A stretch of 64,000 nucleotides of DNA, taken from assembly GCA_014529675.2 (NCBI GenBank), contig CP076040.1, forward strand, positions 2,313,894 to 2,377,893. Direction: 5' to 3'. The notes beneath the pieces are model-generated. The model made no database searches. It worked only from the letters and a program-made list of their open reading frames with translations, and was not told where the DNA came from. The DNA is from Opitutia bacterium ISCC 52. Its GTDB lineage: Bacteria > Verrucomicrobiota > Verrucomicrobiia > Opitutales > UBA2995. Positions 14,965 through 31,701 of the stretch are shown in pieces (the stretch's first letter is position 1; each line of letters begins with the position of its first letter). The position numbers and the translations under genes are program-made.

Positions 14965-16452
14965 ATGCAAGAGCTTCCTTTATTTACTCGAGCACGCGGA
15001 CATGGCGAAAAGATCGCCATTCGCTCTGGCACCAAGGATTCCAGTTACAAAGACTTGTTCACCCAATCAGCTAGCTTGGCTTATAGGTTATTAGACGGAA
15101 AAGACGACTTAAAGGAAGCACGGATCGCCTTTCTGGCTCCAGCAGGCTTCGAGTATGCAACCATTCAATGGGGAATCTGGCGTGCCGGTGGAGTTCTCGT
15201 CCCTTTATGCTTATCCGCAGCCGAACCGGAACTGGAGTATGCGCTCCTCAATTCAGAAACGAGCATGGTCGTGGCGACTGAAGATCAAAACGCCAAAATA
15301 GCAGCTCTTTGCCAACAACTCGACATACCGCTAATTGTCCTTGAGCAGTTGGTTCTCGTATCCGTAAAACCGCTACCCAAACTGGATCCTTCAAGGAGAG
15401 CCATGATTCTTTATACTAGCGGTACCACTAGTAAGCCGAAGGGTGTGGTTTTATCTCACGCAAATCTTCAGGCACAAATTGAATCCCTGGTCGAAGCCTG
15501 GGAGTGGCAGACCAACGATCGCATTCCGCTTTTTCTACCACTCCACCATATTCACGGAATCATCAATGTGCTTTCCTGCGCCCTATGGATGGGTGCAACC
15601 GTCGAAGCCTTTCCAAAGTTTGACAGTCCTAACATTTTGAAACGAGTCGAAGAAGACGCCTACACCGTTTTCATGGCCGTGCCCACTATCTATGTAAAAC
15701 TGATTGAAGCACTGGAAGCACTGGCGGAAGAGGAACGAAGAGCAGTAGTCCGAGGATTCAAAAACCTGCGACTGATGGTGTCAGGATCGGCCGCCCTACC
15801 TGCCAGCGTTCATAAAGCCTGGACTGAATTAACAGGACAAAAGCTTTTAGAACGCTATGGAATGACCGAAATCGGCATGGCCTTGTCCAATCCATTTCAT
15901 GGTGAACGTCGGCCAGGAGCTGTTGGCAAACCCCTACCACAGGTCGAAGTTCGACTCGTGGCCGAATCAGGCGAATGGGTGACGGTTGAAAACGAACCAG
16001 GAGAAATTCAAGTGCGCGGCCCCTGTGTCTTCAATGAATATTGGAAGCGTCCTGATGTTACAGCAGAGTCATTTGAAAATGGCTGGTTCCGCACCGGAGA
16101 CATGGCCGTCATAGAAAACGGTTACTACCGAATAATGGGGAGACTCTCCGTAGACATCATCAAGAGTGGAGGTTACAAATTATCGGCTTTGGAAATTGAG
16201 GCCGTGCTCTTACAACACCCTTTGATTAAAGAATGCGCTGTGATTGGGCATCTGGATGACACCTGGGGTGAAGTTGTTGCAGCAGCCGTGGCCCTTGAGG
16301 AAGGCTCAAGCCTGGCGTTGGATGACCTCCGGGATTGGTGTCGCGACAAACTCTCTCATTATAAACTTCCTAAAAAACTTCTGATCGTAGAATCACTACC
16401 CAGAAATGCCATGGGTAAGCTTACAAAACCCGCGGTAAAGGAGTTGTTCTAA
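14965..16452 (+). CDS. AMP-forming acyl-CoA synthetase, malonyl-CoA synthetase (MatB/ACSF3)-like
   Basis: 495 residues, cytoplasmic. ANL-superfamily signatures in order: P-loop YTSGTTSKPKG (150-160), LPLHHIHGIINVL, MAVPTIYVKL, ERYGMTEIGMALSNP, GWFRTGDMAVIENGYYRIMGR, the hinge/acyl segment IIKSGGYKLSALEIE, and the C-terminal catalytic Lys485 in AMGKLTK. The HHIHG and PTIYVKL segments match the malonyl-CoA synthetase group. It would make malonyl-CoA or a related acyl-CoA from the free acid. The 63-base gap after a sulfatase allows co-transcription, but a functional link is not obvious. The 3' end overlaps the convergent sulfatase by 4 bases. Confidence 0.8.
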   Translation: MQELPLFTRARGHGEKIAIRSGTKDSSYKDLFTQSASLAYRLLDGKDDLKEARIAFLAPAGFEYATIQWGIWRAGGVLVPLCLSAAEPELEYALLNSETSMVVATEDQNAKIAALCQQLDIPLIVLEQLVLVSVKPLPKLDPSRRAMILYTSGTTSKPKGVVLSHANLQAQIESLVEAWEWQTNDRIPLFLPLHHIHGIINVLSCALWMGATVEAFPKFDSPNILKRVEEDAYTVFMAVPTIYVKLIEALEALAEEERRAVVRGFKNLRLMVSGSAALPASVHKAWTELTGQKLLERYGMTEIGMALSNPFHGERRPGAVGKPLPQVEVRLVAESGEWVTVENEPGEIQVRGPCVFNEYWKRPDVTAESFENGWFRTGDMAVIENGYYRIMGRLSVDIIKSGGYKLSALEIEAVLLQHPLIKECAVIGHLDDTWGEVVAAAVALEEGSSLALDDLRDWCRDKLSHYKLPKKLLIVESLPRNAMGKLTKPAVKELF

Positions 16453-18041
16453 TTCTGCCCCTGAGCTTGCCTTCTATTGGGACCATCCGAGTTCTCGCCA
16501 CGAGGCCGGCGACCACCACCCTGTCCTGTTTGAGGACCTTCTCCGCGAGGACCAGTCTGAGCACGCCCTCCAGGACCCCCCTGCCGTCCAGCTCCGCCAC
16601 GACCACCTCCACGAGCGCCGCCTATTTGCGGTGCATTCTTCTTGGGGAGCCATTTAGCCAGTCTGGTTTTATGACCTGCATAGCCGGAATCAGAGGCCAG
16701 ATTGTGCCATTCATGGGGATCATTTTCGATGTCGTAAAACTCTTCAGAACCATCGGGATAACTCAGATATCGAAACCGCTCTCCAGATACCACATGCGTT
16801 CTAAAGGCGGAGGAAGAAACCACGGCACGATCAGGACGCTTATTTGGATCTTTTAACAAAGGAACCAAACTTGTTCCTTGAACGTGGTCAGGCGCTTTCA
16901 GTCCAGTCAACTCAGTTAGAGTGGCATAGAGATCCATGGTCGAAACGGGAGAATGGGAAGTACTACCGGGTGTGGTAACTCCTGGTGCAACGACAATAAA
17001 AGGAACGCGATGCGACTCACCCCAGAGAGATCCTTTCCGCCAACGACCTTTTTCTCCCAAATGAAACCCATGGTCCGACCACAGGACGATGATGGTATCG
17101 TCTGCTCGGCCGCTTTCATCCAGTGCATCCAAGATTAGACCAAGCATCGTATCCGCAAAACTTATACTTGCGAGGTACCCCTGAACGCCTTCCTTCCATC
17201 GTTTGAGAGATTTATCTTCAAGCACCCAATCATGGAGAGCAAAAGAACTCGTTCTGCCGGCAGGACCTCCCCTCGAGGTAGCAACCGGGGAAACATCATC
17301 CAAATCTCCTTCCAAAACTTCTGGGAGCTGAATACTTTCCAATGGATATAGATCAAAATAAGATTGCGGAACGAACCAGGGTTCGTGTGGCCGGTAGATT
17401 CCCACGGCGTTAAACCTGGGACTCTCACTTTGTTCGAGTATTTTTTCAACAGACCAGCTTACCACCTGTCCATCGCCAATAGCTGAATCGTGGGCAACTA
17501 CTGGTGACCAGTCAAAATTCCGCTCAGGACCTCCATTCGCTGGCCGTTCGTGAGGACCGATTTCATCTGGCAATTGCCGGTCCAAGGATGGCCAGAAAGC
17601 ATCCCAACCATTTGGATCGTTATATCCGAGGTAAGCAGCAGGGGCAAAAGTTGAGCCGTGGAATAACTTTCCTGCCCCGACGGTCTGGTAGCCTGCCTCT
17701 CTAAAAAAGCGAGGAATGGTCGCTTTATCCTTAGTGGCATCTATGGTTCTCCAATCCGGTCCATTGCCAAAAATACCTGTACTCGAAGGATGAAGACCTA
17801 ACATAATAGCGGTTCGAGTTGGGTTGCAGATCATGGATGGACTATGCGCATTGGTAAATGTTATGCCACGCTCAGCAAGTCGATCCATGTTGGGCGTCTT
17901 GGCTTGTTCATGCCCTAAGGGCCCAATCCAATCGTTCAAGTCATCGATGGATATAAATAATATATGGGGCCTTTCACTTGCTTTAAGAAACGACGCGATA
18001 ACGAGTATCGCACCAACGAGTATGAATCTAGATTTTGCCAT
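16449..18041 (-). CDS. Secreted iduronate-2-sulfatase-like sulfatase with Gly/Arg-rich tail
   Basis: 530 residues; signal peptide to about residue 20 (FLKAS). Motifs: ISIDDLNDWIGPLG, formylglycine motif C72-N-P-T-R, AGKLFHG, YRPHEPW histidine segment and WSDHGFHLGEKGRWRKGSLW. It belongs to the iduronate-2-sulfatase-like branch. From about residue 475 the catalytic domain gives way to a roughly 55-residue low-complexity tail of GGARGGGRGG and GGPGG units with Arg and Gln, found also in other secreted proteins here. It is the last gene of a minus-strand run and follows the membrane-anchored protein by 60 bases. Confidence 0.9.
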   Translation of the reverse strand: MAKSRFILVGAILVIASFLKASERPHILFISIDDLNDWIGPLGHEQAKTPNMDRLAERGITFTNAHSPSMICNPTRTAIMLGLHPSSTGIFGNGPDWRTIDATKDKATIPRFFREAGYQTVGAGKLFHGSTFAPAAYLGYNDPNGWDAFWPSLDRQLPDEIGPHERPANGGPERNFDWSPVVAHDSAIGDGQVVSWSVEKILEQSESPRFNAVGIYRPHEPWFVPQSYFDLYPLESIQLPEVLEGDLDDVSPVATSRGGPAGRTSSFALHDWVLEDKSLKRWKEGVQGYLASISFADTMLGLILDALDESGRADDTIIVLWSDHGFHLGEKGRWRKGSLWGESHRVPFIVVAPGVTTPGSTSHSPVSTMDLYATLTELTGLKAPDHVQGTSLVPLLKDPNKRPDRAVVSSSAFRTHVVSGERFRYLSYPDGSEEFYDIENDPHEWHNLASDSGYAGHKTRLAKWLPKKNAPQIGGARGGGRGGAGRQGGPGGRAQTGPRGEGPQTGQGGGRRPRGENSDGPNRRQAQGQN

Positions 18042-18101: not shown

Positions 18102-18764
18102 CTAAAACTCGACGGTTTTGATAACCTTGCCGTCCACTGCTCGGTACATTTCTTTGTGCTCCGTCCAGTAACCACTAACATTTAAACGCACGGTAATCTC
18201 CGCCTCTTCCAGGTTCATAAGGTACCAGCCATGGTAGCCAGGAAAGGGAGTCGTGAAGGAACCACTCTGAGAGGTGCCTTCACCTTTGCTGTAGGCCTGC
18301 TCGAAACCTTCGGGATAATTAGGAGCATCTGCGGTTGAAGGATGGCCATGAAATTCAAAGTATACGCCATCGCTTTTAGCTCCCAAGACTTCCCACGAAT
18401 AGACCAAGGTCGAGTCGGCCGGCATGATGAATTTGTGTTCCATTTCGCCAAAGTCCTCGATTTTCAAGTCGATGGTCTCCGTTCTAAAAGGAACTTCCTC
18501 GAGTTTTATTAGCCCTTGGATCGACTCTTCGATTCTCTCAGCCGTGACGTCATATTCGGCTATATTGAATTCCATGGTTTGCCCGAAGTCTTGTCCTGCA
18601 GCCGGCGCACTCTCCGACAATTTGCTAATGCTGGTTAAGCGGCCGAACCCGGTAGGATCGATCCCATACTCAGCGGGCAGAACGACCATTACTAACAGGA
18701 TGACAGCGCCAAGGGCAGCCAATCCCAGTTTCTTTCCAATAGACCACGATGTTTTGTCAGTCAT
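18102..18764 (-). CDS. Membrane-anchored conserved protein next to HupE/UreJ-like gene
   Basis: 220 residues: short basic cytoplasmic start, one membrane helix (about residues 12-28), then LPAEYGIDPTGFGR, a segment I recognise from single-helix anchor proteins that accompany HupE/UreJ-type membrane proteins. The remainder would be periplasmic and beta-rich (VYFEFHGHPS, YHGWYLMN, ITVRLNVSGYW), with several histidines. It follows the HupE-like gene by 9 bases, so it is probably a partner of it. No enzymatic motif is visible; a metal-binding or sensing role is only a guess. Confidence 0.6.
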   Translation of the reverse strand: MTDKTSWSIGKKLGLAALGAVILLVMVVLPAEYGIDPTGFGRLTSISKLSESAPAAGQDFGQTMEFNIAEYDVTAERIEESIQGLIKLEEVPFRTETIDLKIEDFGEMEHKFIMPADSTLVYSWEVLGAKSDGVYFEFHGHPSTADAPNYPEGFEQAYSKGEGTSQSGSFTTPFPGYHGWYLMNLEEAEITVRLNVSGYWTEHKEMYRAVDGKVIKTVEF

Positions 18765-18773
18765 AATGTTACC

Positions 18774-19469
18774 TTAATAAATAAAATAGCCGGTTGCCTG
18801 TAGACCAAAAAAGATGAGGCCAGAGCCGAACAATAGAACATTTGCATTGCGTGAAACTGGCTCGAAGTCAGAGCGATCACGCAGCCAGGTCAGACCCATA
18901 AAGAGGAAGACGAGTCCAATCACCTGTCCGATTTCGACACCGATATTAAAGAAGATCATATTGGGCACCAATCCATCACTGGATAGCGTCAGATCCTGCA
19001 ATTTGGTCGAAAGACCGAAACCGTGAACCAGACCAAAACCGAACACAGCCAGCTTGGGATCGATGAAACGAATGGAACCCAGGTTTTCCAGAGCCTTGTA
19101 ACAAATCGAAAGACCAATGATCGCATCGATAAAATAAGGACTGATGTGGATGTGTGCTAATACTCCGAACAAGAGTGTAATAGAATGGCCGATGGCAAAG
19201 AGACTGACGAACTTTACGACGTCGGTCAGTTTTCCCAGATAGAAAATGACTCCTGCTAGATAGAGCAGATGATCGTAGCCGGTGACCATGTGTTTGGCAC
19301 CGAGATACATGAAAGGACCGGCCCAGACTCCCTCGGCCCTAGCCAGGAAACTTTGATCTCCTTCAGCTACCCCATGAGCGAAAGCTTGGTTGAGCAAAAT
19401 CAATCCTACGAAGGACAGGAAGATCGATCGCGCATCGATCGCTCTGGTGCTGTTCTTAATATTCCACAT
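18774..19469 (-). CDS. HupE/UreJ-type multi-pass membrane protein
   Basis: 231 residues from the ATG at 19469; a TTG at 19487 would add six. The start overlaps the preceding DUF6644 gene by 14 bases. After an N-terminal signal segment ending NQAFA comes HGVAEGD, so the mature chain may begin with His. The body has about six helices with the family features YLGAKHMVTGYDHLLYL, FAIGHSITL and FGLVHGFGLS, whose conserved His/Asp residues in membrane helices suggest metal transport. HupE/UreJ relatives are linked to nickel or other metal permeation. Here no hydrogenase or urease is nearby, so the ion is unknown. Confidence 0.8.
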   Translation of the reverse strand: MWNIKNSTRAIDARSIFLSFVGLILLNQAFAHGVAEGDQSFLARAEGVWAGPFMYLGAKHMVTGYDHLLYLAGVIFYLGKLTDVVKFVSLFAIGHSITLLFGVLAHIHISPYFIDAIIGLSICYKALENLGSIRFIDPKLAVFGFGLVHGFGLSTKLQDLTLSSDGLVPNMIFFNIGVEIGQVIGLVFLFMGLTWLRDRSDFEPVSRNANVLLFGSGLIFFGLQATGYFIY

Positions 19470-19938
19470 AGGGAATGATACGCCCAAATACGATTACACA
19501 GGTCCAGAGGATCAGCGAAAGAGCTGCAACGAAACGAGCCCCGCCAGATAGATCTTTTCCCTCGAGCCCTTGTAAGATCTGAGGGCGTATTCGCCACATG
19601 TAATAGACGACATTTAGCCCGGCTATCACGATCAGGATCATTTTGATACGAAAGGCAATATTCGGTAAATAACGATCCGGGTCTCCGATTATGAAAATAA
19701 TCCCGGTGATCAAATTGATAATGAACCCAACCATCGCTGAAACCATAAAGATTTCGACTCGGATAAGAGGCACAGCACGTGCGACACCCAAAGCTCGAAG
19801 ATCAAAGATGATAACAGACCCCAGTAGTAGGCACAGACCAAAGAAATGGAATATTTCCAAGGTAGGCCAAAGCCAGGCCTCCGACATAATGTATTTATTG
19901 AGCGCAGTGCTATTCAGCCATTGAATAAGTGTTTCCAT
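19456..19938 (-). CDS. DUF6644 family membrane protein (copy 2)
   Basis: 160 residues, four predicted membrane helices, no cleaved signal. It has the DUF6644 pattern: an N-terminal amphipathic LIQWLNSTALN, LWPTLEIFHFFGLCLLLGS in helix 1, FDLRALG in the following loop, and FRIKM/LNVVYYMW before the last helices. It is paralogous to the gene just upstream (19950-20411), which has the same layout with LHAVGMAVLVG and FRALGFG. The conserved His in helix 1 and the Arg in RALG are candidate functional residues. It overlaps the HupE-like gene and follows its paralogue by 11 bases. Function unknown. Confidence 0.7.
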   Translation of the reverse strand: METLIQWLNSTALNKYIMSEAWLWPTLEIFHFFGLCLLLGSVIIFDLRALGVARAVPLIRVEIFMVSAMVGFIINLITGIIFIIGDPDRYLPNIAFRIKMILIVIAGLNVVYYMWRIRPQILQGLEGKDLSGGARFVAALSLILWTCVIVFGRIIPYVEY

Positions 19939-19949
19939 ATCTCAGTCCT

Positions 19950-20411
19950 CTATGAAAAATACCCAATTAGACGTCCCGCAATGAGTGCCACTGCCCAAGC
20001 CACAACAGAGCCTGCGGCAATTCCGCGATGTGCTCCGGAGATCTCACCGTCACCCTTCACACATACTTTCACTAACCACCAGGTTAGCATCAATCCAATC
20101 ACCACCCCAATTAATTTGATATGGAAGGCCGTGTTGTAAAAAAGAGTCGAAGCACTACCCATAAAAAGAGCCGCGCCTGATAACAGGTTTAAAATGAATC
20201 CGTAGACTGCGACGTTCCAATAGGGATCCAAAGCAGTAACCGGAATTTCCCTACCAAACCCCAAAGCCCTGAAGGCCAGTATCAACGATACGCCGACCAG
20301 AACCGCCATCCCAACTGCGTGCAAGGACAGCACAATCGGATATCCCCATTGGGAACTCGAGACGAGCATCCCAATTTTAGAATCTTCTATCCACCACAAT
20401 ATTTCTTCCAT
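19950..20411 (-). CDS. DUF6644 family membrane protein (copy 1)
   Basis: 153 residues with four membrane helices. The family pattern is visible: LWWIEDSKIGMLVSSSQWGYPIVLSLH start, FRALGFG loop, FHIKLIGVV before helix 3 and AGRLIGYF at the end. Together with the next gene it forms a tandem pair, possibly a heterodimer of membrane subunits. It lies 64 bases after the third DUF6152 gene and 11 bases before its paralogue. No catalytic motif is visible. Confidence 0.7.
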   Translation of the reverse strand: MEEILWWIEDSKIGMLVSSSQWGYPIVLSLHAVGMAVLVGVSLILAFRALGFGREIPVTALDPYWNVAVYGFILNLLSGAALFMGSASTLFYNTAFHIKLIGVVIGLMLTWWLVKVCVKGDGEISGAHRGIAAGSVVAWAVALIAGRLIGYFS

Positions 20412-20475
20412 TCGAAATTCAGCCTACCGTTAATTTATCATATGACGTATCCATCTATCAGGTACTGCGCATCAT

Positions 20476-21645
20476 TTATTGTGTATCGTCCTTCAATTCT
20501 TCGCATTCGTATGGAATGAACTTGTCGGCCGTATACAAGGATGAGTTTGAGCCCGAATAGGATTCGGCTAGGTAGACCGGATCAACGACCTTGTATTCGC
20601 GTGTTAATTCTTTACCATCCTTACTCATGGTGAAGCGTTCTGTGATTTCCATCTGGTCACCGTGCCGAACGCCTCCTCTAGATCCTCTAGGAGCTTGCAG
20701 AAATCCTGGCTTAAAACCTTTTGTTTGGACGACCAGGGTATCCCCTTCCCATCTACCAATGGAGTAGCCTGCGGCACTAGGTTCAATGCTATCAGGAAAG
20801 TCTCCGACCAAATGAATGGTGCGCACCAGGTCCATAAAGCCGTAGCTGATCACGATGGTAGATCCCGTTTGCTCGATCTTGTTCATCATCTGGTCAAAGG
20901 CATAATCGAAAATGATATTGGTCGGTTCACAATTGAATCGCGGATTATCGTCTCCAGAGTAGTTAGCTGCGTCATCTTGTCCGATCTGCGTAGGTACATA
21001 TCGTGTTCGCGACCGGCCACCTCCGCCTCCGGGCCTTCCCTGGTTTCCCACGGGCGGAAGTATCTCCACGCGTTGAGTGGATCCGTCAATTGAGAGATCC
21101 AATTCTGGCGGAGGTCCATCAGCTCTGGGCGTAGGATCGAATGGTGGTGGACCATCTCGTACGGGTTCCGACCAGTTTCCCGCCAAATTAGGAGTTCCAT
21201 CTTCACGCGTGAGATCACGCTCACCAAGGACGACATTTCCTGATGCGTCTAATGCCTGGTAGCGAGCGACGACTGTGCCGTCTTCAAAAGTAATCGTCTC
21301 GGTATAAACTGTTTTTGGATCACGTCGATCTGGTGATCCAAATATCTCAATGGTGCTACCAATAGCAAACATGTCAGTGGTCCAACCCTTGCGTTTGAGC
21401 AAGCTGCCAGAACGCAATTCACAGCGCCACTGCTCCTCTTTGCCTGCATCGTTGGTTACCTTGAAGTAGACGTATGCATGGGGGTTCACAAAGCGAACCC
21501 GGTTCACAACTCCTTTCACTCTCAGGACTTGCTCCAGGTCAAACTGCCCGGTGATACCATGGTGCGCTACCGCGGTAGACGATAAAAACGACATGCTCAG
21601 CAAGAATGCAAGCAATCCGGTGATAAAAATTCGCTTCATGGTCAT
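20476..21645 (-). CDS. Secreted DUF6152 family protein (third tandem paralogue)
   Basis: 389 residues; signal peptide ends SSTAVA, so the mature protein probably begins HHGITGQFD. The N-terminal DUF6152 domain (about 28-110) carries VNRVRFVNPHAYVYFKV, EEQWRCELRSGSLLKRKGW and GSPDRRDPKTVY. A short Gly-rich linker (GGGGRSRTR) leads to a C-terminal domain with FNCEPTNIIFDY, IEQTGSTIVISYGFMD and RTIHLVGDFP. All three paralogues share these blocks almost word for word. The start MTMKR could also be the second ATG at 21639. It is 37 bases from its upstream paralogue. The function is unknown; conserved His and Cys residues suggest a metal or cofactor role. Confidence 0.75.
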   Translation of the reverse strand: MTMKRIFITGLLAFLLSMSFLSSTAVAHHGITGQFDLEQVLRVKGVVNRVRFVNPHAYVYFKVTNDAGKEEQWRCELRSGSLLKRKGWTTDMFAIGSTIEIFGSPDRRDPKTVYTETITFEDGTVVARYQALDASGNVVLGERDLTREDGTPNLAGNWSEPVRDGPPPFDPTPRADGPPPELDLSIDGSTQRVEILPPVGNQGRPGGGGGRSRTRYVPTQIGQDDAANYSGDDNPRFNCEPTNIIFDYAFDQMMNKIEQTGSTIVISYGFMDLVRTIHLVGDFPDSIEPSAAGYSIGRWEGDTLVVQTKGFKPGFLQAPRGSRGGVRHGDQMEITERFTMSKDGKELTREYKVVDPVYLAESYSGSNSSLYTADKFIPYECEELKDDTQ

Positions 21646-21682
21646 TATCTGGTTTGGTGGGAAATAGTGCTCAGCAAATCCC

Positions 21683-22924
21683 TTACTGCTGCATATCGTC
21701 TTTCAACTCCTCACATTCTGTTGGAATGTACGGATCACTGGTATAGACGGATTGATTCCTATGTGAGCTGGGTTCGGCCAGGTAAACAGGGTCTAGCACA
21801 GTATATTCGCGAACTAATTCGGAGCCGTCATCACTCATAGTGAAGCGTTCAGTAATTTCCATCTGGTCACTATGTCGAACGCAGCTATTTCGATTACCTC
21901 CAGGTGCTTGAAGAAATCCTGGCTTAAAGCCTTTGGTTTGAACGACCAAAGTATTGCCTTCCCATTTTCCTACGGAATAACCTGCGACACTGGGTTCAAT
22001 TTGATCAGGAAAGTCACCAACCAGGTGAATGGTACGAACCATGTCCATAAAACCGTAAGTTATTACAATCCCCGAGCCTGTTTGTTCGATCTTGTTGATC
22101 ATTTGATCGAAGTCATAATCAAAGATAATATTAGTTGGTTGACAATTGAACCTAGGATTCTGATCTCCCGAATAATCGTCGGACTCATCTATGCCAATTT
22201 GTGTCATCACAAAAGGTGCTGGTCTGGCAGGACCGCCAGCTCCTCGACCAGGGCCTCCTCGGCCTCCCGGACCTCCTTGGCCTCTTTGACCCTCAGCTCT
22301 TGGACCACCGCCTCTTTGCGGACGATTCATAGACGGAGGAGCGGCAACTCTTATCGGAGTGCCGTCAGCTGACAGTTCAATGCCTTTGGGAGGTCCATCC
22401 GCTCTTGGAAGTGCACCACGGGGTCCTGGGGCATCTCTTTGAGGCGTGGACCAGTTACCAGCTAAATTAGGCGTTCCATCTTCACGTGTGAGGTCACGTT
22501 CCCCGATGACGATGTTTCCAGACTTATCTAATACGTCATAGCGTGCGATAACAGAGCCATCTTCAAAGGTAATGGTTTCAGTATAAACCGTCTTAGGATC
22601 ACGACGATCTGGTGATCCAAAAATTTTAATTTTGGTTCCTGGCTTGAACATATCTGTGGTCCAACCTTTGCGCTTAAGTAAGCTGCCTGCCCGCAACTCG
22701 CAACGCCATTGCTCCTCCTTCCCTTGATCGTTCGTGACTTTGAAATAGAGGTAGGCATGCGGGTTCACAAATCGAACGCGATTCACCACACCTGTTACGG
22801 TCAATATCTGCTCAAGATCGAACTGCCCTGAAACACCGTGGTGGGCCACCGCAGTAGAGGGAAGAGATATTAGGCTGCACGAGAGTGCAAGTAAGGCGGC
22901 TATGGATGTTTGCTTTATAGTCAT
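21683..22924 (-). CDS. Secreted DUF6152 family protein (second tandem paralogue)
   Basis: 413 residues with a signal peptide ending SSTAVA and mature start HHGVSGQFD. Same architecture as its neighbours: N-terminal DUF6152 domain, long Gly/Arg/Pro-rich linker (about residues 200-240, repeated GGPGGRGGP units), then the C-terminal domain with FNCQPTNIIFDYDF and GFMDMVRTIHLVGDFP. The linker is the longest of the three. It ends QTKGFKPGFLQAPGGNRNS and a CEELKDDMQQ tail whose Cys is kept in all copies. The two gaps to its paralogues are 37 and 100 bases. It arose by tandem duplication; no function is known. Confidence 0.75.
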   Translation of the reverse strand: MTIKQTSIAALLALSCSLISLPSTAVAHHGVSGQFDLEQILTVTGVVNRVRFVNPHAYLYFKVTNDQGKEEQWRCELRAGSLLKRKGWTTDMFKPGTKIKIFGSPDRRDPKTVYTETITFEDGSVIARYDVLDKSGNIVIGERDLTREDGTPNLAGNWSTPQRDAPGPRGALPRADGPPKGIELSADGTPIRVAAPPSMNRPQRGGGPRAEGQRGQGGPGGRGGPGRGAGGPARPAPFVMTQIGIDESDDYSGDQNPRFNCQPTNIIFDYDFDQMINKIEQTGSGIVITYGFMDMVRTIHLVGDFPDQIEPSVAGYSVGKWEGNTLVVQTKGFKPGFLQAPGGNRNSCVRHSDQMEITERFTMSDDGSELVREYTVLDPVYLAEPSSHRNQSVYTSDPYIPTECEELKDDMQQ

Positions 22925-23024
22925 GTTTATAGTTTTTCAGGTATCATTGTTAGTCGAGCCAAGTTTAATCTAAACGAACTGAAATGCAGTTAGTTCTCAG
23001 GTTGTGTATCAGTCACCTCGATAC

Positions 23025-24236
23025 CTAGTTCTGCATGTCATCTTTCAGCTCTACGCACTCGTAAGTGATGAACGCCTCGGTCGTGTGCTGGGACGCATTT
23101 GAACCCTTGTAGGGTTCTGCCAGGTAAATGGGATCTACCACTGTATAGTCACGGGTCAACTCATTGCCATCTTCACTCATAGTGAAGCGCTCGGTGATGA
23201 CCATCTGATCGCTGTGGCGAACCGCTGTTCTGGCACGGCCACCAACAGCTCGAAGGAATCCTGGTTTAAATCCTTTGGTTGTAACAACCAGAGTATCACC
23301 TTCCCATTTACCAAGAGAATAGCCTGCCAAACTGGGTTCAATCTCATTGGGAAAGCCACCAACTAAATGAATCGTCCGCACCAGGTCCATAAAACCGTAG
23401 GAAAAGATGATTCCAGCTCCGGTTTGCTCTATTTTATTGATCATCTGATCCTTTGCATAATCAAGGATAATGTTGGTGGGCTGACAGTTGAATTGAGGAT
23501 TCTGCTCCTCCGTATAATCGTCCTGCTCATCGATGGCAATCTGGGTCAACACGTAGGGTGAAGGGCGAGGTCTTCCACCACCTCCACCACCCCGGGGCCG
23601 TCCACCGCCACCACCGCCTCCGGCTGCTTGAGGTCGACCAGTTGGAGGAGGTAAACCTACCCTTACCGGGGAGCCATCTGGAGCGAGGTTGAGATCCGCT
23701 GTCGGTCCATCTGCTCTTGGGCGTGGACCTTGAGGTGGAGGGCTATCTCTTACAATTTCTGACCAATTTCCTGCTAAATTCGGTGTACCGTCTTCTCGTT
23801 TGAGATCACGCTCTCCAACCATAATATTCCCTGACTTGTCCAGTGCATCATAACGAGCGAGAACCGAACCATCTTCAAAGGTTATGGTTTCAGTATAGAC
23901 CGTCTTTGGATCACGACGATCCGGTGAACCAAATAATTTGATGGTGGAACCAACTGGAAACATATCTGTTGTCCAACCTTTGCGCTTAAGCAAACTGCCC
24001 GAACGTAATTCGCAGCGCCACTGCTCCTCCTTGCCTTGGCTATTGCTCACTTTGAAATAGACATAGGAATGTGGGTTTACAAAACGCACGCGGTTGACTT
24101 TGCCTGTCACGGTTAAAACCTGCTCCAGGTCGAATTGTCCAGTGACTCCATGGTGTGCCACTGCGGTTGAGGGTAATACCAATAGACTGCAAAGAGAGGT
24201 AAGCGCAGCTGCGATAAGAGTATATATGATCCTCAT
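23025..24236 (-). CDS. Secreted DUF6152 family protein (first tandem paralogue)
   Basis: 403 residues; signal peptide ends LPSTAVA and the mature chain would begin HHGVTGQFD. N-terminal DUF6152 domain, poly-Gly/Arg linker (GGGGGGGRPRGGGGGGRPR, about residues 205-225) and C-terminal domain with FNCQPTNIILDYAKDQM and GFMDLVRTIHLVGGFP. It is the first gene of the minus-strand cluster, with 485 bases of non-coding sequence upstream, so the cluster promoter should lie there. The linker varies most among the copies while both domains are tightly conserved, suggesting the domains are functional and the linker is a spacer. Confidence 0.75.
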   Translation of the reverse strand: MRIIYTLIAAALTSLCSLLVLPSTAVAHHGVTGQFDLEQVLTVTGKVNRVRFVNPHSYVYFKVSNSQGKEEQWRCELRSGSLLKRKGWTTDMFPVGSTIKLFGSPDRRDPKTVYTETITFEDGSVLARYDALDKSGNIMVGERDLKREDGTPNLAGNWSEIVRDSPPPQGPRPRADGPTADLNLAPDGSPVRVGLPPPTGRPQAAGGGGGGGRPRGGGGGGRPRPSPYVLTQIAIDEQDDYTEEQNPQFNCQPTNIILDYAKDQMINKIEQTGAGIIFSYGFMDLVRTIHLVGGFPNEIEPSLAGYSLGKWEGDTLVVTTKGFKPGFLRAVGGRARTAVRHSDQMVITERFTMSEDGNELTRDYTVVDPIYLAEPYKGSNASQHTTEAFITYECVELKDDMQN

Positions 24237-24721: not shown

Positions 24722-26497
24722 ATGAAAAAACATCTGCTTGTTTGTGCACTCGTATGCGCGCTAACTTTCTTCTTTTCGGCATGCAATGGCGGACAAAGCG
24801 GGGACAACGCCTCGAGCACCAATACCTTGGCTGAAATCAAAGGCTCTCAACCGAATATCCTATTCATCGTTGCCGATGACCTTGGCTACACTGACCTGGG
24901 CGTATATGGTGGAGAAATTGAAACGCCACACTTGGACCAGCTTGCGCGAGCCGGCCTCATTCTTACCGATTTCCACAACGAAGCGGTCTGCGGGCCCACT
25001 CGCGCTTCCATTATGGCAGGAACCGACAATCGTAATGCGGGTGGCGCCATGCACCAAACGGCTAATCAAATCGGTGTGCCAGGATACGAATCTCATTTAA
25101 GTCGGGACGTAGTGCCTTTCTCAGACCTACTGCAACAGAGCGGCTACAATACCTATTTTCTTGGGAAATGGCATTTGGGCAGCGAACCAGCCCTACTGCC
25201 AACTGCGCGTGGGTTTAACCGATCGTATTCCTTGATGGAAGGCTTCGCCAGTCACTTTCATGATATGGGTCGTTTTCGCCCCGACCAACTGGGCACTTAC
25301 TTTGCAGATGGAAAGAAGGTCGATGAACTGCCGAAAGATTTTTTCTCAACAGACTTTTATACGGACCTATTGATTGAGTATCTGGATAAGGACGCTGATA
25401 GCGGGAAGCCCTGGTTTGCCTATATGGCTTACACCGCACCTCATTGGCCCCTTCAAGCACCCGACGAGTATATTGATAAATACAAGGGCATGTATGATAA
25501 AGGTTACGAGGTACTACGTGAACAACGTATTGTCCGTGGAAAAGAACTCGGAGTGATCCCCGAGGAAGCAGTCATGTATCCCCGTCTAAAATCGGTTCCT
25601 GCCTGGGACAATCTCACCTCAGAAGAAAAAGCAGTCGCTTCAAGAGAAATGGAAATTTATGCGGCGATGGTCGACGGCATCGACCAGAACGTAGGACGAC
25701 TTTTGGATCACCTGAAGGCGATCGACGAATATGAAGACACCCTGATCATTTTCATCTCTGACAATGGTGCAGAAGGTATTGATCGAGGAGGCCCAGCTCG
25801 TGGTTGGGATAACAGCTTAGAAAATTTGGGGCGTATTAACTCCTACATTTATTACGGTGAAAAATGGGCTCAAGCCGGCGTGGGTGTCGGGCGCTATTTC
25901 AAATCCCATAGCTCTGAAGGAGGATCACTCGGCCCTGCATTTTTCTACCATAAGGACATGACCAAGAAAGGTCAGTTGAACGATAAGTTTATGGGCGTAG
26001 TCGATTTCTATCCAACTTTTGTAGAACTAGCCGGGGGCAGCCACTTGAAAACGGGTAGCAACGGAAAACCTATCCATGAGGTGCAAGGACATTCCCTGTT
26101 GCCTGTCCTTTTTGGTGACGCTGATTCAGTCCGTCCGGATGACTTCACCTACGGTTGGGAAGTGTTTGGACATCGAGCATTACGCAAAGGGGATTATAAA
26201 TTGGTGTGGTTAACATCCAAGGCTACCGAAGGCGGACAGAAGGTACCTGAGTTGGCTGATCAATGGGGTCTCTTTGACCTTTCCGTCGATCCGGGTGAAA
26301 CCAATGACCTCTCTGAGGCGATGCCGGAAATCAGAGCAGACCTTCTGAAGTCCTGGGATACTTACGTGGCGGACAATGGAATTGTATTACCGATCGGCCT
26401 TCCTCCACGTCCTGGAGGCGGTGGTCCTCGGCCCGGCGGTGGTCCTGGAGCTCGTGGACCTCGGGGTGGTCCTCCACCAGGTGGCCCAGGAGACTAG
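24722..26497 (+). CDS. Lipoprotein sulfatase (AtsA-type arylsulfatase) with Gly/Pro-rich tail
   Basis: 591 residues. The N-terminus is a lipoprotein signal with lipobox FSAC at Cys21, so the enzyme is membrane-anchored, unlike the soluble sulfatases nearby. Motifs: FIVADDLGYTDLG, formylglycine motif C90-G-P-T-R followed by SIMAGTDNRNAGG (the AGTD/N signature of the AtsA-type branch), LGKWHLGSE, TAPHWPLQAP and FISDNGAEG, then a large insertion typical of this longer type. From about residue 562 there is a PPRPGGGGPRPGGG tail. It is divergent from the DUF6152 cluster and convergent with the TRAP operon's last gene. Confidence 0.92.
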   Translation: MKKHLLVCALVCALTFFFSACNGGQSGDNASSTNTLAEIKGSQPNILFIVADDLGYTDLGVYGGEIETPHLDQLARAGLILTDFHNEAVCGPTRASIMAGTDNRNAGGAMHQTANQIGVPGYESHLSRDVVPFSDLLQQSGYNTYFLGKWHLGSEPALLPTARGFNRSYSLMEGFASHFHDMGRFRPDQLGTYFADGKKVDELPKDFFSTDFYTDLLIEYLDKDADSGKPWFAYMAYTAPHWPLQAPDEYIDKYKGMYDKGYEVLREQRIVRGKELGVIPEEAVMYPRLKSVPAWDNLTSEEKAVASREMEIYAAMVDGIDQNVGRLLDHLKAIDEYEDTLIIFISDNGAEGIDRGGPARGWDNSLENLGRINSYIYYGEKWAQAGVGVGRYFKSHSSEGGSLGPAFFYHKDMTKKGQLNDKFMGVVDFYPTFVELAGGSHLKTGSNGKPIHEVQGHSLLPVLFGDADSVRPDDFTYGWEVFGHRALRKGDYKLVWLTSKATEGGQKVPELADQWGLFDLSVDPGETNDLSEAMPEIRADLLKSWDTYVADNGIVLPIGLPPRPGGGGPRPGGGPGARGPRGGPPPGGPGD

Positions 26498-26514: not shown

Positions 26515-27153
26515 TTACAAGATTTCCGCTACCTCATCGAAATCCATTCGCGGGCCGCGCGGATGTAAGCCTTCCGTTTCTCCGTAACCGAGACAGCAAA
26601 GGAAGTTCGACTTGTAACGTCCGTCAGCAAAGAACTCCTTATCGATGATGTCATTGTGGAAGCCGGAGATGCCATTGACGTCTAAACCGAGGGCACGGGC
26701 AGCTAGCATGAAGTAGGCCCCTTGAAGTGAGCTATTACGGAAGGCAGTTGATTCGGCTTTCTCAGGATTATCCCTATACAAGCCACTCACATCCTTTATT
26801 GGAAACAACTTTGGCAAATACTCAAAAAATTGAGTATCATAAGCAATGATAGCCACTACCGGAGATACTTTTACCTTGGGAATATTCCCTTCGTGTAAAG
26901 ACGGAATCGTACGACTGATGGCTTCTTCACTTTTCAGAAACAAATAACGCGCAGGATTGGAATTCTGCGAAGTAGGTCCCCACTTCATCACCTCATACAA
27001 TTCCCGAAGAACAGAATTCTCTACCTCGCGATCTTGCCACTTCTTGAAGGAACGAGCATTTCGAAATAATAAGTCCAGACCATTGTGATCCAAATTTTGG
27101 ATACGGTCTCTCAGGTTTTTAATAGCGTCGCCAGGCGTCGAGTTCTCAGACAT
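26515..27153 (-). CDS. Nitroreductase-family protein, RutE (malonic semialdehyde reductase)-like
   Basis: 212 residues. The RutE/HadB-type signature is clear: LFRNARSFKKWQDREV, LRELYEVMKWGPTSQNSNPARYLFL with FMN-contact residues, and a C-terminal LGYGETEGLHPRGPRMDFDEVAEIL. RutE reduces malonic semialdehyde to 3-hydroxypropionate in pyrimidine breakdown; no other rut gene is near. It is the last gene of the TRAP/dioxygenase run, 75 bases after the aldolase-type enzyme. Here it might reduce an aldehyde or enone made by ring cleavage. Family firm, substrate unknown. Confidence 0.78.
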   Translation of the reverse strand: MSENSTPGDAIKNLRDRIQNLDHNGLDLLFRNARSFKKWQDREVENSVLRELYEVMKWGPTSQNSNPARYLFLKSEEAISRTIPSLHEGNIPKVKVSPVVAIIAYDTQFFEYLPKLFPIKDVSGLYRDNPEKAESTAFRNSSLQGAYFMLAARALGLDVNGISGFHNDIIDKEFFADGRYKSNFLCCLGYGETEGLHPRGPRMDFDEVAEIL

Positions 27154-27229
27154 AGTTTTAAAAAATCAATGCTAGTGTTCTTAATGCCACCGAAATGAAA
27201 CTTGGTGGGTTGAACCAGTGAAGAACAAC

Positions 27230-28441
27230 CTAAGTAACATTGGCTAAGATTTCTTTGAACTCGTCGTTAGTCAGAATTCGCTTTTTAGCAATCCCCGCCT
27301 GTTTGACCTCGGCCAACAATTGCGTGATCTGCTCATCACTCACGCCGTCAATACCGAGTTCATTCAGCTTATAGATAATCGATGCCTTACCACTTTTCTT
27401 ACCCAATACGATATCGCCGGTTCTACCAGTTAGTGCCGGGTGCGTGCCGAACATAGCCAGCGGCTTCTCGACAACCAAGTTAACGCCGATACCAGATTCG
27501 CGTGTAAAGTTCCTGTCTCCCAGAATGGGTTTATTCAAGGCGTAGGGAATGCCGGTGATGTCTGCCAAAAGATTTCCAAGTTCAGGCAATTTCGCCAGAT
27601 CGTATTTTGTTTCGTACCCGTAGAGTAGTTCGAGGCAGAGAATTAGCTCCTCAAGGGCAGCATTACCGGTTCGTTCACCGAGTCCACCGACACAACTGTG
27701 GACACAAGTGGCGCCAACCGTGACGGCTGCCAGCTCAGTAGCAACGCCCGTTCCGAAATCATTGTGCGTGTGGATCTCAACGGGAAGCCCCGTAAGTCCA
27801 TTGACCTTTTGCACCAAGTACTTAATCGCTTCAGGAGTCGCACAGCCCATCGTGTCTACCACGCCAATCGAATCCGGCGAGGAATGCTTCATAATGCCGG
27901 TGAGCAGATTAGTCAGGTCATCTTCGCGAGCCCGTGTCGTATCGTAGGGAAAGAAGACAGCGTGGAGTCCTTTTTCTTTGGCGTAATTGATCACATCCGC
28001 ACTCTTTTTTAGGACGTCTTCCCAGGTCCAATTAAATTGGTATTTGAGCTTCGGATAACCAATGGGTACTTCGATGATCACACCGTCGGCTCCACATTCG
28101 ACTGCTCTGTCGATATCGGCATTCATAGCACGAGCGAAGGTATAAATTTTGGCGTCAAGACCCAGAGCGGAAATTTGCTTAATCGCTTCAAAATCCTGTG
28201 GAGAAACCGCTGGCATTCCAGCTTCGATCCGATCGATACCGACTTCGTCCAGCTTCTTTGCAATCGCAACTTTTTCTTCGACTGTAAAAACTAGCCCAGG
28301 TGTTTGCTCGCCATCTCGAAGGGTCGCATCGTGAATCTCCACCTTCTCTGGTAAATTGAGTTCACCTGTGACCTCTGGATGAAAGTTGTATGGGCTGACC
28401 CAATACTGGTCTTCTTTGTAATGTTTGCCGTGTTCGCTCAT
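27230..28441 (-). CDS. DRE-TIM metallolyase (homocitrate / isopropylmalate synthase-like)
   Basis: 403 residues from the ATG at 28441; an upstream in-frame start at 28510 would add 23 residues of poor quality. The HMGL-like TIM barrel is visible: DATLRDGEQTPG (38-49) with the metal/base Asp-Arg, HTHNDFG (224-230) with both metal histidines, then GLGERTGNA. The C-terminus (KSGKASIIYKLNELGI) resembles homocitrate-synthase-type tails without a LeuA regulatory domain. These enzymes condense acetyl-CoA with a 2-oxo acid or run as lyases. Embedded in a ring-cleavage operon rather than an amino-acid operon, it may act on a cleavage product. No leu or lys genes are nearby. Confidence 0.75.
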   Translation of the reverse strand: MSEHGKHYKEDQYWVSPYNFHPEVTGELNLPEKVEIHDATLRDGEQTPGLVFTVEEKVAIAKKLDEVGIDRIEAGMPAVSPQDFEAIKQISALGLDAKIYTFARAMNADIDRAVECGADGVIIEVPIGYPKLKYQFNWTWEDVLKKSADVINYAKEKGLHAVFFPYDTTRAREDDLTNLLTGIMKHSSPDSIGVVDTMGCATPEAIKYLVQKVNGLTGLPVEIHTHNDFGTGVATELAAVTVGATCVHSCVGGLGERTGNAALEELILCLELLYGYETKYDLAKLPELGNLLADITGIPYALNKPILGDRNFTRESGIGVNLVVEKPLAMFGTHPALTGRTGDIVLGKKSGKASIIYKLNELGIDGVSDEQITQLLAEVKQAGIAKKRILTNDEFKEILANVT

Positions 28442-28521
28442 GGTTGTATATCTATGTTTTAAATTTGGTATGTCGATAATTGTCTCTCTATTGAGGCGGT
28501 CGGTTAACAAACCGCACTGAA

Positions 28522-28914
28522 TTATATCAACTCTCGTTGCCCATTGGAATAGGTCACCTTGAGCGTGATCGATCCTTCGTTCATCATCCAGGGCCTGACT
28601 CGGAATGTGCGCGCCCCACTCTTATGCATGGGATCGTTCTCGGCTATGGACCGGGCCTCATCGATAGAGCTTGCGCGCAGGATAACCATCCCCTCGCCTT
28701 CCCATTCCTGCTCAGCATCATCCGCAAAAGGTCCGGCGGCGAATATCGAACCATTCGCCTCCAATTCCAATTGGTATTTGAGATGTTCCTGCAAGTGCTC
28801 CATGACCGCATCCATACCACCAGCTGGCTTGGTAAGAACTACATAGAGTTTTTTGGCTAAGAGACCCTTTGCTTTGACGTGCTCGTGATGTGCTTCCCAG
28901 GAAGATTGTGCCAC
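28522..28914 (-). CDS. YciI-family (dimeric alpha+beta barrel) protein
   Basis: 130 residues from a GTG start at 28914; the YCII domain proper begins around residue 20 (KKLYVVLTKP). The core is typical: GSIFAAGPFADD, GEGMVILRASSIDEARSIAENDPMHKSGARTFRVRPWMMNEG, with the Asp in NDPMH corresponding to the conserved YCII acid. The fold is shared with muconolactone isomerase, and the position directly after an intradiol dioxygenase (19 bases) makes an isomerase or hydrolase role on the cleavage product plausible. The 20-residue N-terminal extension is unusual for YciI. Confidence 0.7.
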   Translation of the reverse strand: MAQSSWEAHHEHVKAKGLLAKKLYVVLTKPAGGMDAVMEHLQEHLKYQLELEANGSIFAAGPFADDAEQEWEGEGMVILRASSIDEARSIAENDPMHKSGARTFRVRPWMMNEGSITLKVTYSNGQRELI

Positions 28915-28933
28915 TGTTTAGATGGGGTTGAGA

Positions 28934-29791
28934 TTAGAGTGCTTCGAGGTCGAAATCGAAATCGACTTTATAGAAAGGAGATGGAATGCCGTACTTTTCA
29001 GCTTCTTCTTCAGAGGTGACCAACTTATACGGTACCGCCAGAGATTGACGGACACCGAACACAGCATCCTCCTCAATGTATTCGTCCTCTTCACAAAAAA
29101 CTTCGGTTATCAGGTTGCGGTGCCCTTCCGCGCTCACTTTGTAGTGCAGATGGGACGGACGCCAGGCATGTCTCCCCTGCAAGTCGAGCATGCGACCCAC
29201 CGGTCCATCGGTCGGAACTTTATAACTGACAGGCTTGATAGTGGTAAATTCGTAATAGCCGTCTTTGTTGGTCAGCATTTTGCAACGCAGGTTATTCTCC
29301 GGCTGTTCGGGATCCTGATTTTCGTAGAGCCCGTTGGCAGCGGTTTGCCATACGTCAATAATTGCGCCTTCGATCGGATCACCACCCAGTGTCCTGACGG
29401 TGCCTGAAACCACGGTAGGCTCCCCTTCACTGTCGCCGATCAAGTTGGTGCCAATTTCAACCATCTTCGAGCCCTCAATGTAAAAGGGCCCTAACACGCT
29501 CGCTTCTGTACCTCCATCGGGATTGCTGTTGATAATATCCACCAAGGACGAAATTCCCAGGGTATCAGATGTCAGGATAAATTCATTGCGCGTGGGTCCG
29601 GTGATTTGTCCCGTATCGTAGAGATATTCAATCGCGGCTTCCCATTCATCTTGAGTTAATTGAACATCCTTAACAAAGGCGTGCAGGTGGCGAATCAAGC
29701 TCGACATCACCTCTTTCGCCCGAGGTTCTTTGGTCCCATCGATGGCTTTAAGGACCGCATCGGTTATGTTACCTTCTGTAAGATTTTTCAT
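28934..29791 (-). CDS. Intradiol ring-cleavage dioxygenase (catechol / hydroxyquinol 1,2-dioxygenase type)
   Basis: 285 residues with the N-terminal helical dimerisation domain (1-100) and catalytic beta-sandwich. Non-haem Fe(III) ligands can be placed: Tyr156 (ANGLYENQDPEQ), Tyr190 (KPVSYKVPTDGPVG), His214 and His216 (RPSHLHYKV), with the family-like spacing. RHAWRPSHLH and DAVFGVRQSL resemble hydroxyquinol 1,2-dioxygenases more than plain catechol enzymes. It would open a dihydroxylated or trihydroxylated aromatic ring to a muconate. It lies 31 bases downstream of the TRAP permease genes, so an aromatic acid may be the transported substrate. Confidence 0.85.
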   Translation of the reverse strand: MKNLTEGNITDAVLKAIDGTKEPRAKEVMSSLIRHLHAFVKDVQLTQDEWEAAIEYLYDTGQITGPTRNEFILTSDTLGISSLVDIINSNPDGGTEASVLGPFYIEGSKMVEIGTNLIGDSEGEPTVVSGTVRTLGGDPIEGAIIDVWQTAANGLYENQDPEQPENNLRCKMLTNKDGYYEFTTIKPVSYKVPTDGPVGRMLDLQGRHAWRPSHLHYKVSAEGHRNLITEVFCEEDEYIEEDAVFGVRQSLAVPYKLVTSEEEAEKYGIPSPFYKVDFDFDLEAL

Positions 29792-29822
29792 AGAGTGTTA
29801 TTCTGAATAATGGTCAGAGGTC

Positions 29823-31139
29823 TTAAAGAAAGACCAAGGAAAGAGAGGGAAAACTGATTATTAAAATGAGAACTGCCAACATGATCAGAGCAAATGGAAA
29901 GGCTCCGATAAATACATCTGATAATTTTATCTCCGGATCATTCAGCGAGCTATGAATCACAAAACAAGATACACCCAATGGTGGCGTTAGTAATCCGATC
30001 TCTGCACCGATGACTGTAACAATTCCAAACCACACCAAGTGGATATCCAAGGGTGTCAGAATGGGCAAAAAGAGAGGAACTATGATAAGAATAATGGACA
30101 CCGTATCCAAGATGGTCCCCATGAGCACCAGGAGGATCACGTAAATAATCATGATCCCTACAAACCCGAATTCCTGGTGCTGAATCCATTCACTAAAGGT
30201 GGTTGGCAATCCAGCTATCCCCAGCATTCGGCTATACATGGAAGCAGCAATCAAGAGCAGCAGAATAGAGGCGGTAATATGACCGGTCTCTATAAGAACT
30301 TTCCAAAACCCCTTGAATGTTAAACGCCTTTTGGCGACGGCTACAATCAGAGCTCCTACTGCCCCAGCGGCACCAGCCTCAGTAGCGGTAAACCAGCCGG
30401 TGTAAATGCCGCCCAACACAATACCTACCAATAGAACGATAGGAAAAACCATACGTAGAATCTGCAAGCCGTTCAGCGACTGGCCTTGTTCTTCGACTTT
30501 CTCACTCCCGCTTTTCATGACCATCTTCGGGAAGAATGTGGCCATAGAAAGAATCGCCACTCCAAAGGCGACGGAAAGCAGTATTCCCGGAATCACACCA
30601 GCGATGAACATATGCCCCACCGATTGTTCGGTGATTATGGCATAGAGAATGAGCATCACACTTGGAGGGATTAACATGCCAAGAACAGAGCTACCGGCTA
30701 CTACTCCCACTGTGAATCGCGGAGTATATCCGAATCGCTTCATTTCCGGAATCGACACTTTGGTAAACACCGATGCTGAGGCAATAGATGAGCCAGTAAT
30801 CGATGCAAAGATGGCATTGGCCGCAACGGTTGCTATTCCCAATCCGCCTCGGAGTCTGCGAAAAATATAATTGGAGACCTCATAGATATCTCGACCCACC
30901 CCCGCATGACTGATCAACAGCCCCATTAAAGCAAACAAAGGAACCACCGCAAAGGTAGGCTCTGCAATGCTGTCTGCAGCAGCCAACGAAAGTAAGGAAA
31001 TCGGCACGTCAATATCTCCACGCAGCATCCACACTCCGACAAAAGAGACCAAACCCAAGGCCACGGGAATGTACAATCCAGAGTAAATCAAGACGAGGAT
31101 CAAGACTACCGAAAGTAAACCTATTTGAATTTCAGTCAT
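29823..31139 (-). CDS. dctM: TRAP transporter large permease subunit (DctM-type)
   Basis: 438 residues with about 12 membrane helices. DctM signatures: GLYIPVALGL start, FAVVPLFALMGLL, FASITGSSIASASVFTK, GSSVLGMLIPPSVMLILYAI and a late LTPPLGVSCFVIHS. It forms the Na+-coupled channel unit with the DctQ protein (31144-31701, 4-base gap) and takes solute from the DctP lipoprotein. The operon places it before an intradiol dioxygenase. Confidence 0.9.
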   Translation of the reverse strand: MTEIQIGLLSVVLILVLIYSGLYIPVALGLVSFVGVWMLRGDIDVPISLLSLAAADSIAEPTFAVVPLFALMGLLISHAGVGRDIYEVSNYIFRRLRGGLGIATVAANAIFASITGSSIASASVFTKVSIPEMKRFGYTPRFTVGVVAGSSVLGMLIPPSVMLILYAIITEQSVGHMFIAGVIPGILLSVAFGVAILSMATFFPKMVMKSGSEKVEEQGQSLNGLQILRMVFPIVLLVGIVLGGIYTGWFTATEAGAAGAVGALIVAVAKRRLTFKGFWKVLIETGHITASILLLLIAASMYSRMLGIAGLPTTFSEWIQHQEFGFVGIMIIYVILLVLMGTILDTVSIILIIVPLFLPILTPLDIHLVWFGIVTVIGAEIGLLTPPLGVSCFVIHSSLNDPEIKLSDVFIGAFPFALIMLAVLILIISFPSLSLVFL

Positions 31140-31143
31140 TCCG

Positions 31144-31701
31144 CTAATCTATCTTGGTTACGGTTGCCGGTTCAGCCCTCGGCCTACTCAAATTTCTCTG
31201 AATGAAGACAACGAATTGCAGGAGCGTAACCGCACAGCCGATGACAATGATCAATTTAATCGGCCAAACCGGTGCAGTAAATACACCTTCGACACCTACA
31301 TAGAAATCTGCTCGATAGGCTTCGAAAAAGAGCGGCACACTCCCCCAGAGTATCAGCCCCATGAATACTGCACCTAGTAGGTCGAACAGAGCTGCATGAA
31401 ATTTACCAAAGGTGGGCCATTTCCTTCCAATGATATGAAAGAGTCCGTCCGACCGAGGTAAGCGTCCCTTGCGTGTCGCATCGCCCAACTGCAGAAACAC
31501 AATACCAACAATGGAGAGCTCGACGATTTCGTTCACCCCATCAATGGGTGAATGGAAAAGCTTCCGACCAAAAGCATCCATATTGATCAGAATGGTCAGC
31601 ACAAAAATCCAGACCGAACCGATACTATTTAGATTCGATAGGACAATTTCCAGGACCCGATCAAACTTACCGTTTGATCCTGTAGAACTTACGTCTTCCA
31701 T
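31144..31701 (-). CDS. dctQ: TRAP transporter small permease subunit (DctQ-type)
   Basis: 185 residues, four membrane helices. DctQ pattern: a first helix around IGSVWIFVLTILINMDAFGRKLF, VNEIVELSIVGIVFLQLG, the polar ATRKGRLPRSD segment and a last helix ending in FIQRNLSR. It lies 6 bases downstream of DctP and 4 bases upstream of DctM, so the three are one transcript. Confidence 0.88.
   Translation of the reverse strand: MEDVSSTGSNGKFDRVLEIVLSNLNSIGSVWIFVLTILINMDAFGRKLFHSPIDGVNEIVELSIVGIVFLQLGDATRKGRLPRSDGLFHIIGRKWPTFGKFHAALFDLLGAVFMGLILWGSVPLFFEAYRADFYVGVEGVFTAPVWPIKLIIVIGCAVTLLQFVVFIQRNLSRPRAEPATVTKID

Follow-up and report, generated by a model that had tools for sequence, protein, structure and literature searches.

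The window considered here is a stretch of 64,000 nucleotides from Opitutia bacterium ISCC 52 (Opitutales, Verrucomicrobiota), the genome of which is a single contig of 4.8 Mb. Between positions 24236 and 18102, its minus strand carries a run of seven tightly packed co-directional genes that encode three secreted DUF6152 proteins, two DUF6644-like membrane proteins, one HupE_UreJ_2 membrane protein, and one single-helix anchored protein (Table 1). The intergenic gaps along the run are, in order, 100, 37, 64, 11, −32, and 9 bp, followed by 60 bp before a sulfatase gene. The listing of open reading frames (ORFs) and the Pfam scan bear out the preliminary description of seven co-directional genes with gaps of 9–100 bases or overlaps. 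The DUF6152 trio, which had been called near-identical, turned out to share 72–75% pairwise identity. Promoter and terminator scans gave match counts not above those of shuffled sequence.

The operon consists of two modules, DUF6152-DUF6644 and HupE-anchor, which are mostly found apart. The complete gene order is repeated in six other Opitutales genomes, each with one or two DUF6152 genes (loci L018/L021 of genome G005, where the contig ends after DUF6644, L020, L022, L023, L024, and L025). Elsewhere, both modules were seen together only at one Acidobacteriota locus, where they lie side by side (L160). The DUF6152-DUF6644 module is a cross-phylum gene pair. An initial search for DUF6644 yielded eight loci, and all three outside Verrucomicrobiota had DUF6152 nearby. 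In a wider draw of 398 Pseudomonadota and 199 Acidobacteriota genomes (phylum labels were taken from the named records around which each draw was centred), DUF6644 was found in 29 and 24, respectively, and 80 DUF6644 loci were scanned with custom profiles. The distance between DUF6152 and DUF6644 is at most 500 bp in 35 of these loci and at most 5 kb in 51. All 28 checked DUF6644-bearing Pseudomonadota genomes contain DUF6152, vs. 3 of 20 without DUF6644 (Fisher p 3e-10, with phylogenetically non-independent genomes and controls that were not lineage-matched). In 18 of the 23 genomes with a single DUF6152 gene, DUF6644 is located within 1 kb of it; a distance of 3 kb covers 22 of the 23. At L149 (6466–8178, minus strand), one ORF of 570 aa comprises a signal peptide, HHG, DUF6152, the beta domain, and the four-helix DUF6644-A, with DUF6644-B immediately downstream. 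Since the remaining neighbours vary, the DUF6152-DUF6644 pair is regarded as the conserved unit. A survey of the neighbours of minimal pairs for a common pathway gave only scattered matches, at most three Rrf2 regulators and three histidine phosphatases. An Rrf2-family regulator stands directly upstream of the pair in three related Pseudomonadota genomes (L135, L142, L153). At L156 (5559–8905), one gene resembling ferric reductase and one resembling CopD come after the pair.

The repeated Opitutales order and the linkage in other phyla led to rejection of a chance assembly of the genes. A different question is whether the two modules work together. They could have met by lineage-specific chance in Opitutales, with DUF6152 serving a role unrelated to metal, e.g., ligand binding in the envelope by an OB-fold. 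The restriction of the full combination to Opitutales and one Acidobacteriota locus fits such an explanation, which we consider improbable: the Opitutales loci keep the order, the modules are adjacent again in L160, and the strict histidine conservation described below would need another reason. The dedicated complex suggested in the preliminary description gains from the natural DUF6152-DUF6644 fusion, although the mostly separate modules do not make one indivisible system. Likewise, the co-occurrence that it proposed to look for was found for DUF6152 and DUF6644, whereas DUF6152, DUF6644, and HupE are rarely together.

The three DUF6152 (PF19649) proteins of the window score 74.9–79.5 bits against a Pfam cut-off of 27 (E 2e-22 to 5e-21). 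Each has two domains, DUF6152 at residues ~21–108 and then a part of about 280 residues. In other bacteria this beta part is a separate gene adjoining DUF6152; the two partners are thus fused in the Opitutales form. Residue conservation was surveyed in 97 distinct DUF6152 proteins from three phyla, of which 95 reach the His-His region. Two consecutive histidines stand at the predicted mature N-terminus in 95/95, with Ala directly before them in 92, and a third histidine, in an NPH motif, is invariant as well (95/95). According to a rule-based check (a hydrophobic segment, with small residues at −3/−1) rather than SignalP, a signal-peptidase-like site falls exactly before His-His in 91 of the 92 proteins with enough upstream sequence. 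Overall, the structure model for the mature protein is of mediocre quality, with a mean predicted local distance difference test (pLDDT) of 55. Its residues 12–93, mostly at 63–85 by block, form an OB-fold (Foldseek best E 0.003 to OB-folds; VIA Z about 7, root-mean-square deviation 2.3 over 79), and some DUF6152 relatives weakly match OB-type families. The invariant His-His at the predicted N-terminus and the NPH histidine on a predicted OB-fold would make up a histidine-brace-like signature. The C-terminal part, in a poor region of the model, looks like a barrel of the fatty-acid-binding-protein or lipocalin type. The DUF6152 proteins match neither CopC nor DUF1775 in Pfam; a CopC domain is matched by none of the window proteins, nor does it occur among the families that 46 DUF6152 relatives match. 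PDB sequences gave no convincing relative of either DUF6152 or DUF6644. Two more DUF6152 proteins with the beta domain are encoded in the same genome (G000:C1:3605261 and G000:C1:3630721; L010 and L011), distant from DUF6644, with sulfatases and other hydrolases as neighbours.

The DUF6644 (PF20349) paralogues of the window, 31% identical to each other, score 20.1 and 23.6 bits (E 7.8e-4 and 6.2e-5), below the cut-off of 27 bits. Nevertheless, an iterated profile, tree placement, and the shared H31, G79, F96, K99, and R153, all five invariant in an alignment of 52 rows, place both within the family. Because distant members escape the Pfam model, the family may be larger than the class-wide count of DUF6644 in 2 of 384 genomes suggests. 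No relative was seen in the viral contigs searched. The model of paralogue B is good (pLDDT 90, predicted template modelling score 0.81) and consists of four long helices. Foldseek returned nothing for it at E 0.001, and a second look gave Z up to 11.3, which is within the tool's warning range for helical bundles.

Several lines of evidence suggest a kinship of DUF6644 with the membrane proteins CopD, HemJ, and DUF2214. Among the 52 members, 28 match DUF2214, 6 CopD (PF05425), and 3 UPF0093 at E 0.1 or better. The best CopD match reaches 8.9e-9, with one member above the curated CopD cut-off, and the two window proteins themselves have no CopD match. Comparison of the DUF6644 profile gave E of 2.9e-4 with short CopD-like proteins, 5.5e-4 with HemJ, 0.007 with CopD, and 0.48 with HupE as a negative control; the hhalign probabilities are low (5–41%), so that this comparison alone is insufficient to prove kinship. 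CopD and HemJ compared with each other gave 0.0049, and hence DUF6644 is about as near to either of them as they are mutually. The DUF6644 residues H31, G79, and K99 align with the invariant H, G, and K of CopD (columns H154, G205, and K230 of E. coli YebZ). The upstream and downstream genes of the tandem form mirrored clades across three phyla, with 9 label changes vs. 65.6 in shuffled data, and therefore the copies are not recent. In a few pairs the order is swapped, with each type still present once. This pattern suggests that the A/B tandem is an old heteromeric pair comparable to the two halves of CopD. CopD is one eight-helix chain, whereas here two four-helix chains add up to eight helices. 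HemJ (UPF0093), the protoporphyrinogen oxidase, is likewise a four-helix membrane protein, apparently of the same superfamily, with its conserved His and Lys aligned to those of DUF6644. Unlike HemJ, DUF6644 has its own conserved R48, F96, W145, and R153, and its partner is an exported His-His protein.

The second module starts with the HupE_UreJ_2 (PF13795) protein, which scores 154.2 bits in Pfam against a cut-off of 24.5 (E 2.8e-45). Its predicted mature form begins with HGVAEGDQ, and nearly all relatives with a readable start have a similar His after Ala. The next gene encodes the anchored protein, which has conserved residues including H139, H178, G179, and W180 and matches nothing in Pfam or NCBIfam. 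In Pseudomonadota, HupE lies within the fetched flank at 28 of 30 anchor loci and is fused to the anchored protein in 10. A HupE-anchor fusion is also present in Verrucomicrobiota (L034). The closest known counterparts are the Anglerases, in which Ang-1 or Ang-2 is combined with a HupE_UreJ_2 permease (PMC12537917); the window HupE resembles them in the His predicted to follow its signal peptide. The N-terminal-His Ang domains on PF13795 proteins were reported to bind Cu2+ with a Kd of ~62–74 nM (PMC12537917). In the window HupE, however, no Ang domain separates His38 from the permease domain, which starts at residue 59, about 20 residues further on; the anchored domain is separate or, elsewhere, fused at the C-terminus. 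The anchored protein may take the place of the Ang domain.

These parts recall CopC-CopD, YobA-YebZ, and YcnI-YcnJ, in which a secreted protein with an N-terminal His is likewise adjacent or fused to a membrane protein. The histidine-brace proteins YcnI and CopC act with CopD in copper acquisition, and growth when copper is limiting depends on the brace residues as well as on a His of CopD (PMC12362106, PMC13344008); the YcnJ His295 of that work may be the His aligned here. A further parallel is offered by DUF4198 and DUF6702, secreted unstudied families with a conserved His right after signal cleavage (PMC12537917). DUF6152 differs from them in belonging to another Pfam family, in its predicted OB-fold (a difference also from the CopC and DUF1775 folds), in its two consecutive and third invariant histidines, and in its DUF6644 partner. 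The signal-strapping paper on N-terminal-His families deals with DUF4198, DUF6702, Ang-1, and Ang-2 and does not name DUF6152 in its main text (PMC12537917). A search of 5.39 million open-access papers found neither DUF6152, DUF6644, nor their Pfam accessions named.

By this analogy, the operon has about an even chance of being an extracytoplasmic system for capture and transfer of a transition metal, most likely copper, which works like CopC-CopD with different parts. We infer this function; what is directly supported is the gene pairing, the fusions, the conserved residues, the superfamily membership, and the predicted folds. The three DUF6152 proteins would be exported and cleaved just before His-His, and the free N-terminal amine together with His1 and His2 and/or the NPH histidine would hold a metal ion on the OB-fold. 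The metal, or a linked electron, could then be handed to the inner-membrane pair of DUF6644-A and DUF6644-B, which together would supply the eight helices of CopD with one invariant membrane His, Gly, and Lys. HupE, with its predicted N-terminal His, and the anchored partner may provide a parallel route of metal capture or transmembrane movement. Since each gene pair has a protein with a predicted first-residue His, the operon is most likely a CopC-CopD relative. The genome has a single PF05425 match, which is HemJ-like; a classical CopD was accordingly not detected there. The early guess of metal passage is strengthened by the predicted His-His N-terminus, the apparent CopD-superfamily membership of DUF6644, and the predicted N-terminal His of HupE; a role in sensing gained no support.

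A number of observations weigh against copper transfer as the function. Copper genes are not enriched near minimal DUF6152-DUF6644 pairs in the neighbour survey. The N-terminus of the DUF6152 model, where the metal would be held, is of low confidence (residues 1–3 with pLDDT below 50). One Bryobacterales genome (G684, that of L027) has 57 DUF6152 genes, most of which adjoin a secreted beta-domain protein and some of which stand beside pyrroloquinoline quinone (PQQ) dehydrogenases, and another genome (G683) has 13. Such an excess of copies, mostly away from DUF6644, is beyond the needs of a carrier and suits enzymes better. At L185 (5602–6861, plus strand), one chain contains two DUF6644 domains and then a cytochrome c'-like domain bearing a CESCH motif, and this fusion, which is also weakly similar to HemJ, points to a role in electron transfer or redox chemistry. 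The copy numbers and the L185 fusion weigh most heavily against the metal-transfer reading. Finally, relatives of HupE also carry nickel.

The L185 fusion and the copy numbers in G684 can be read as signs of a redox module, the main rival explanation. DUF6644-A/B would then resemble HemJ in carrying electrons with the help of quinone or haem, and DUF6152, together with its putative barrel, would act as a histidine-brace copper enzyme or as an electron acceptor that oxidises a periplasmic substrate. In the profile comparison DUF6644 is nearer to HemJ than to CopD, a ferric-reductase gene adjoins the pair in L156, and the beta domain seems barrel-like in its low-confidence model. We nevertheless consider this possibility rather unlikely. 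A bis-His haem site is not apparent with a sole invariant His in DUF6644, most minimal pairs stand alone with neither a cytochrome nor a substrate enzyme, and the oxidase and peroxidase activity of the N-terminal-His Ang domains is weak (PMC12537917). A bolder reading, which we also hold to be unlikely, would see in DUF6152 a new family of OB-fold copper enzymes with a histidine brace, with dozens of copies in some Acidobacteriota, fed with quinone-pool electrons through a DUF6644-A/B heterodimer.

The metal itself could also be nickel or cobalt, with HupE as the permease and DUF6152 as an external nickel scavenger. Nickel permease function has been ascribed to PF13795 relatives, and the N-terminal-His proteins of the DUF4198 family favour Ni2+ (PMC12537917). 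This carries only a small probability in our view, since Cu2+ was the preferred ion of Ang domains isolated from PF13795 proteins (PMC12537917) and the putative kinship of DUF6644 with CopD points to copper.

Sulfatase genes surround the operon. The co-directional one, with which the preliminary description let the run end, is kept in only three of the six loci that reach that far (the window, L022, and L024) and was rejected as a core member. The divergent upstream sulfatase is a steadier neighbour, being present also in L018, L020, L022, and L023. A simple motif scan counted seven Cys-type (CxPxR) sulfatases in the window, and more were seen by eye. Aerobic formylglycine-generating enzyme needs copper. 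The Opitutales operon might accordingly supply copper to that enzyme, which would activate the many Cys-type sulfatases of the genome, and besides those seven genes and the conserved divergent neighbour, the sulfatases beside both solitary DUF6152 genes agree with this. We regard it as the least probable of the explanations weighed here. Proximity means little because sulfatases are everywhere in the genome, and minimal pairs outside Opitutales have no sulfatases among their common neighbouring families. Further along the window, at 26515–32781, nitroreductase-like, HMG-lyase-like, YciI-like, intradiol dioxygenase, and TRAP transporter genes were recognised by eye. This cluster, which is partly common to L020, L022, and L023 with rearrangement, looks like an aromatic catabolism island.

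Table 1. Coordinates of the operon and its flanking sulfatase genes in the window.
Feature	Position	Strand	Remarks
Secreted DUF6152 protein 1, 403 aa	23025–24236	−	Signal peptide, predicted His-His mature N-terminus, OB-fold domain (predicted), C-terminal beta domain
His28-His29 codons, DUF6152 protein 1	24150–24155	−	Predicted mature N-terminus after AVA; invariant across the family
Secreted DUF6152 protein 2, 413 aa	21683–22924	−	Architecture as protein 1; ORF and Pfam
His28-His29 codons, DUF6152 protein 2	22838–22843	−	
Secreted DUF6152 protein 3, 389 aa	20476–21645	−	Architecture as protein 1; structure modelled from residue 28
His28-His29 codons, DUF6152 protein 3	21559–21564	−	
DUF6644-like paralogue A, four-helix membrane protein, 153 aa	19950–20411	−	Probable CopD/HemJ superfamily
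DUF6644-like paralogue B, four-helix membrane protein, 160 aa	19456–19938	−	Model mean pLDDT 90; invariant H31, G79, K99
HupE_UreJ_2 membrane protein	18774–19487	−	Predicted cleaved signal AFA/HGVAE; N-terminal His38
His38 codon, HupE	19374–19376	−	Predicted mature N-terminus
Anchored HupE partner	18102–18764	−	Single membrane helix at the N-terminus, then an extracytoplasmic domain; without Pfam match; HupE-fused in other bacteria
Divergent lipoprotein-like sulfatase	24722–26497	+	CGPTR active-site motif; kept neighbour in Opitutales, association only
Co-directional sulfatase, 60 bp downstream	16449–18041	−	CNPTR motif; kept in 3/6 loci

In general, the operon most likely represents the logic of CopC-CopD realised with different parts, the proteins of which are unstudied. 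Two widespread families without an assigned function gain a stable partnership, candidate metal residues, and a probable link to the CopD/HemJ superfamily, which makes their function testable. If the copper-transfer reading is true, metal handling of the CopC-CopD type would have an independent origin in an OB-fold protein combined with a split CopD-like pair, and such a system could supply copper where a classical CopD is missing. The DUF6644 A/B pair may also serve as a simple two-chain model for the roles of the two halves of CopD.

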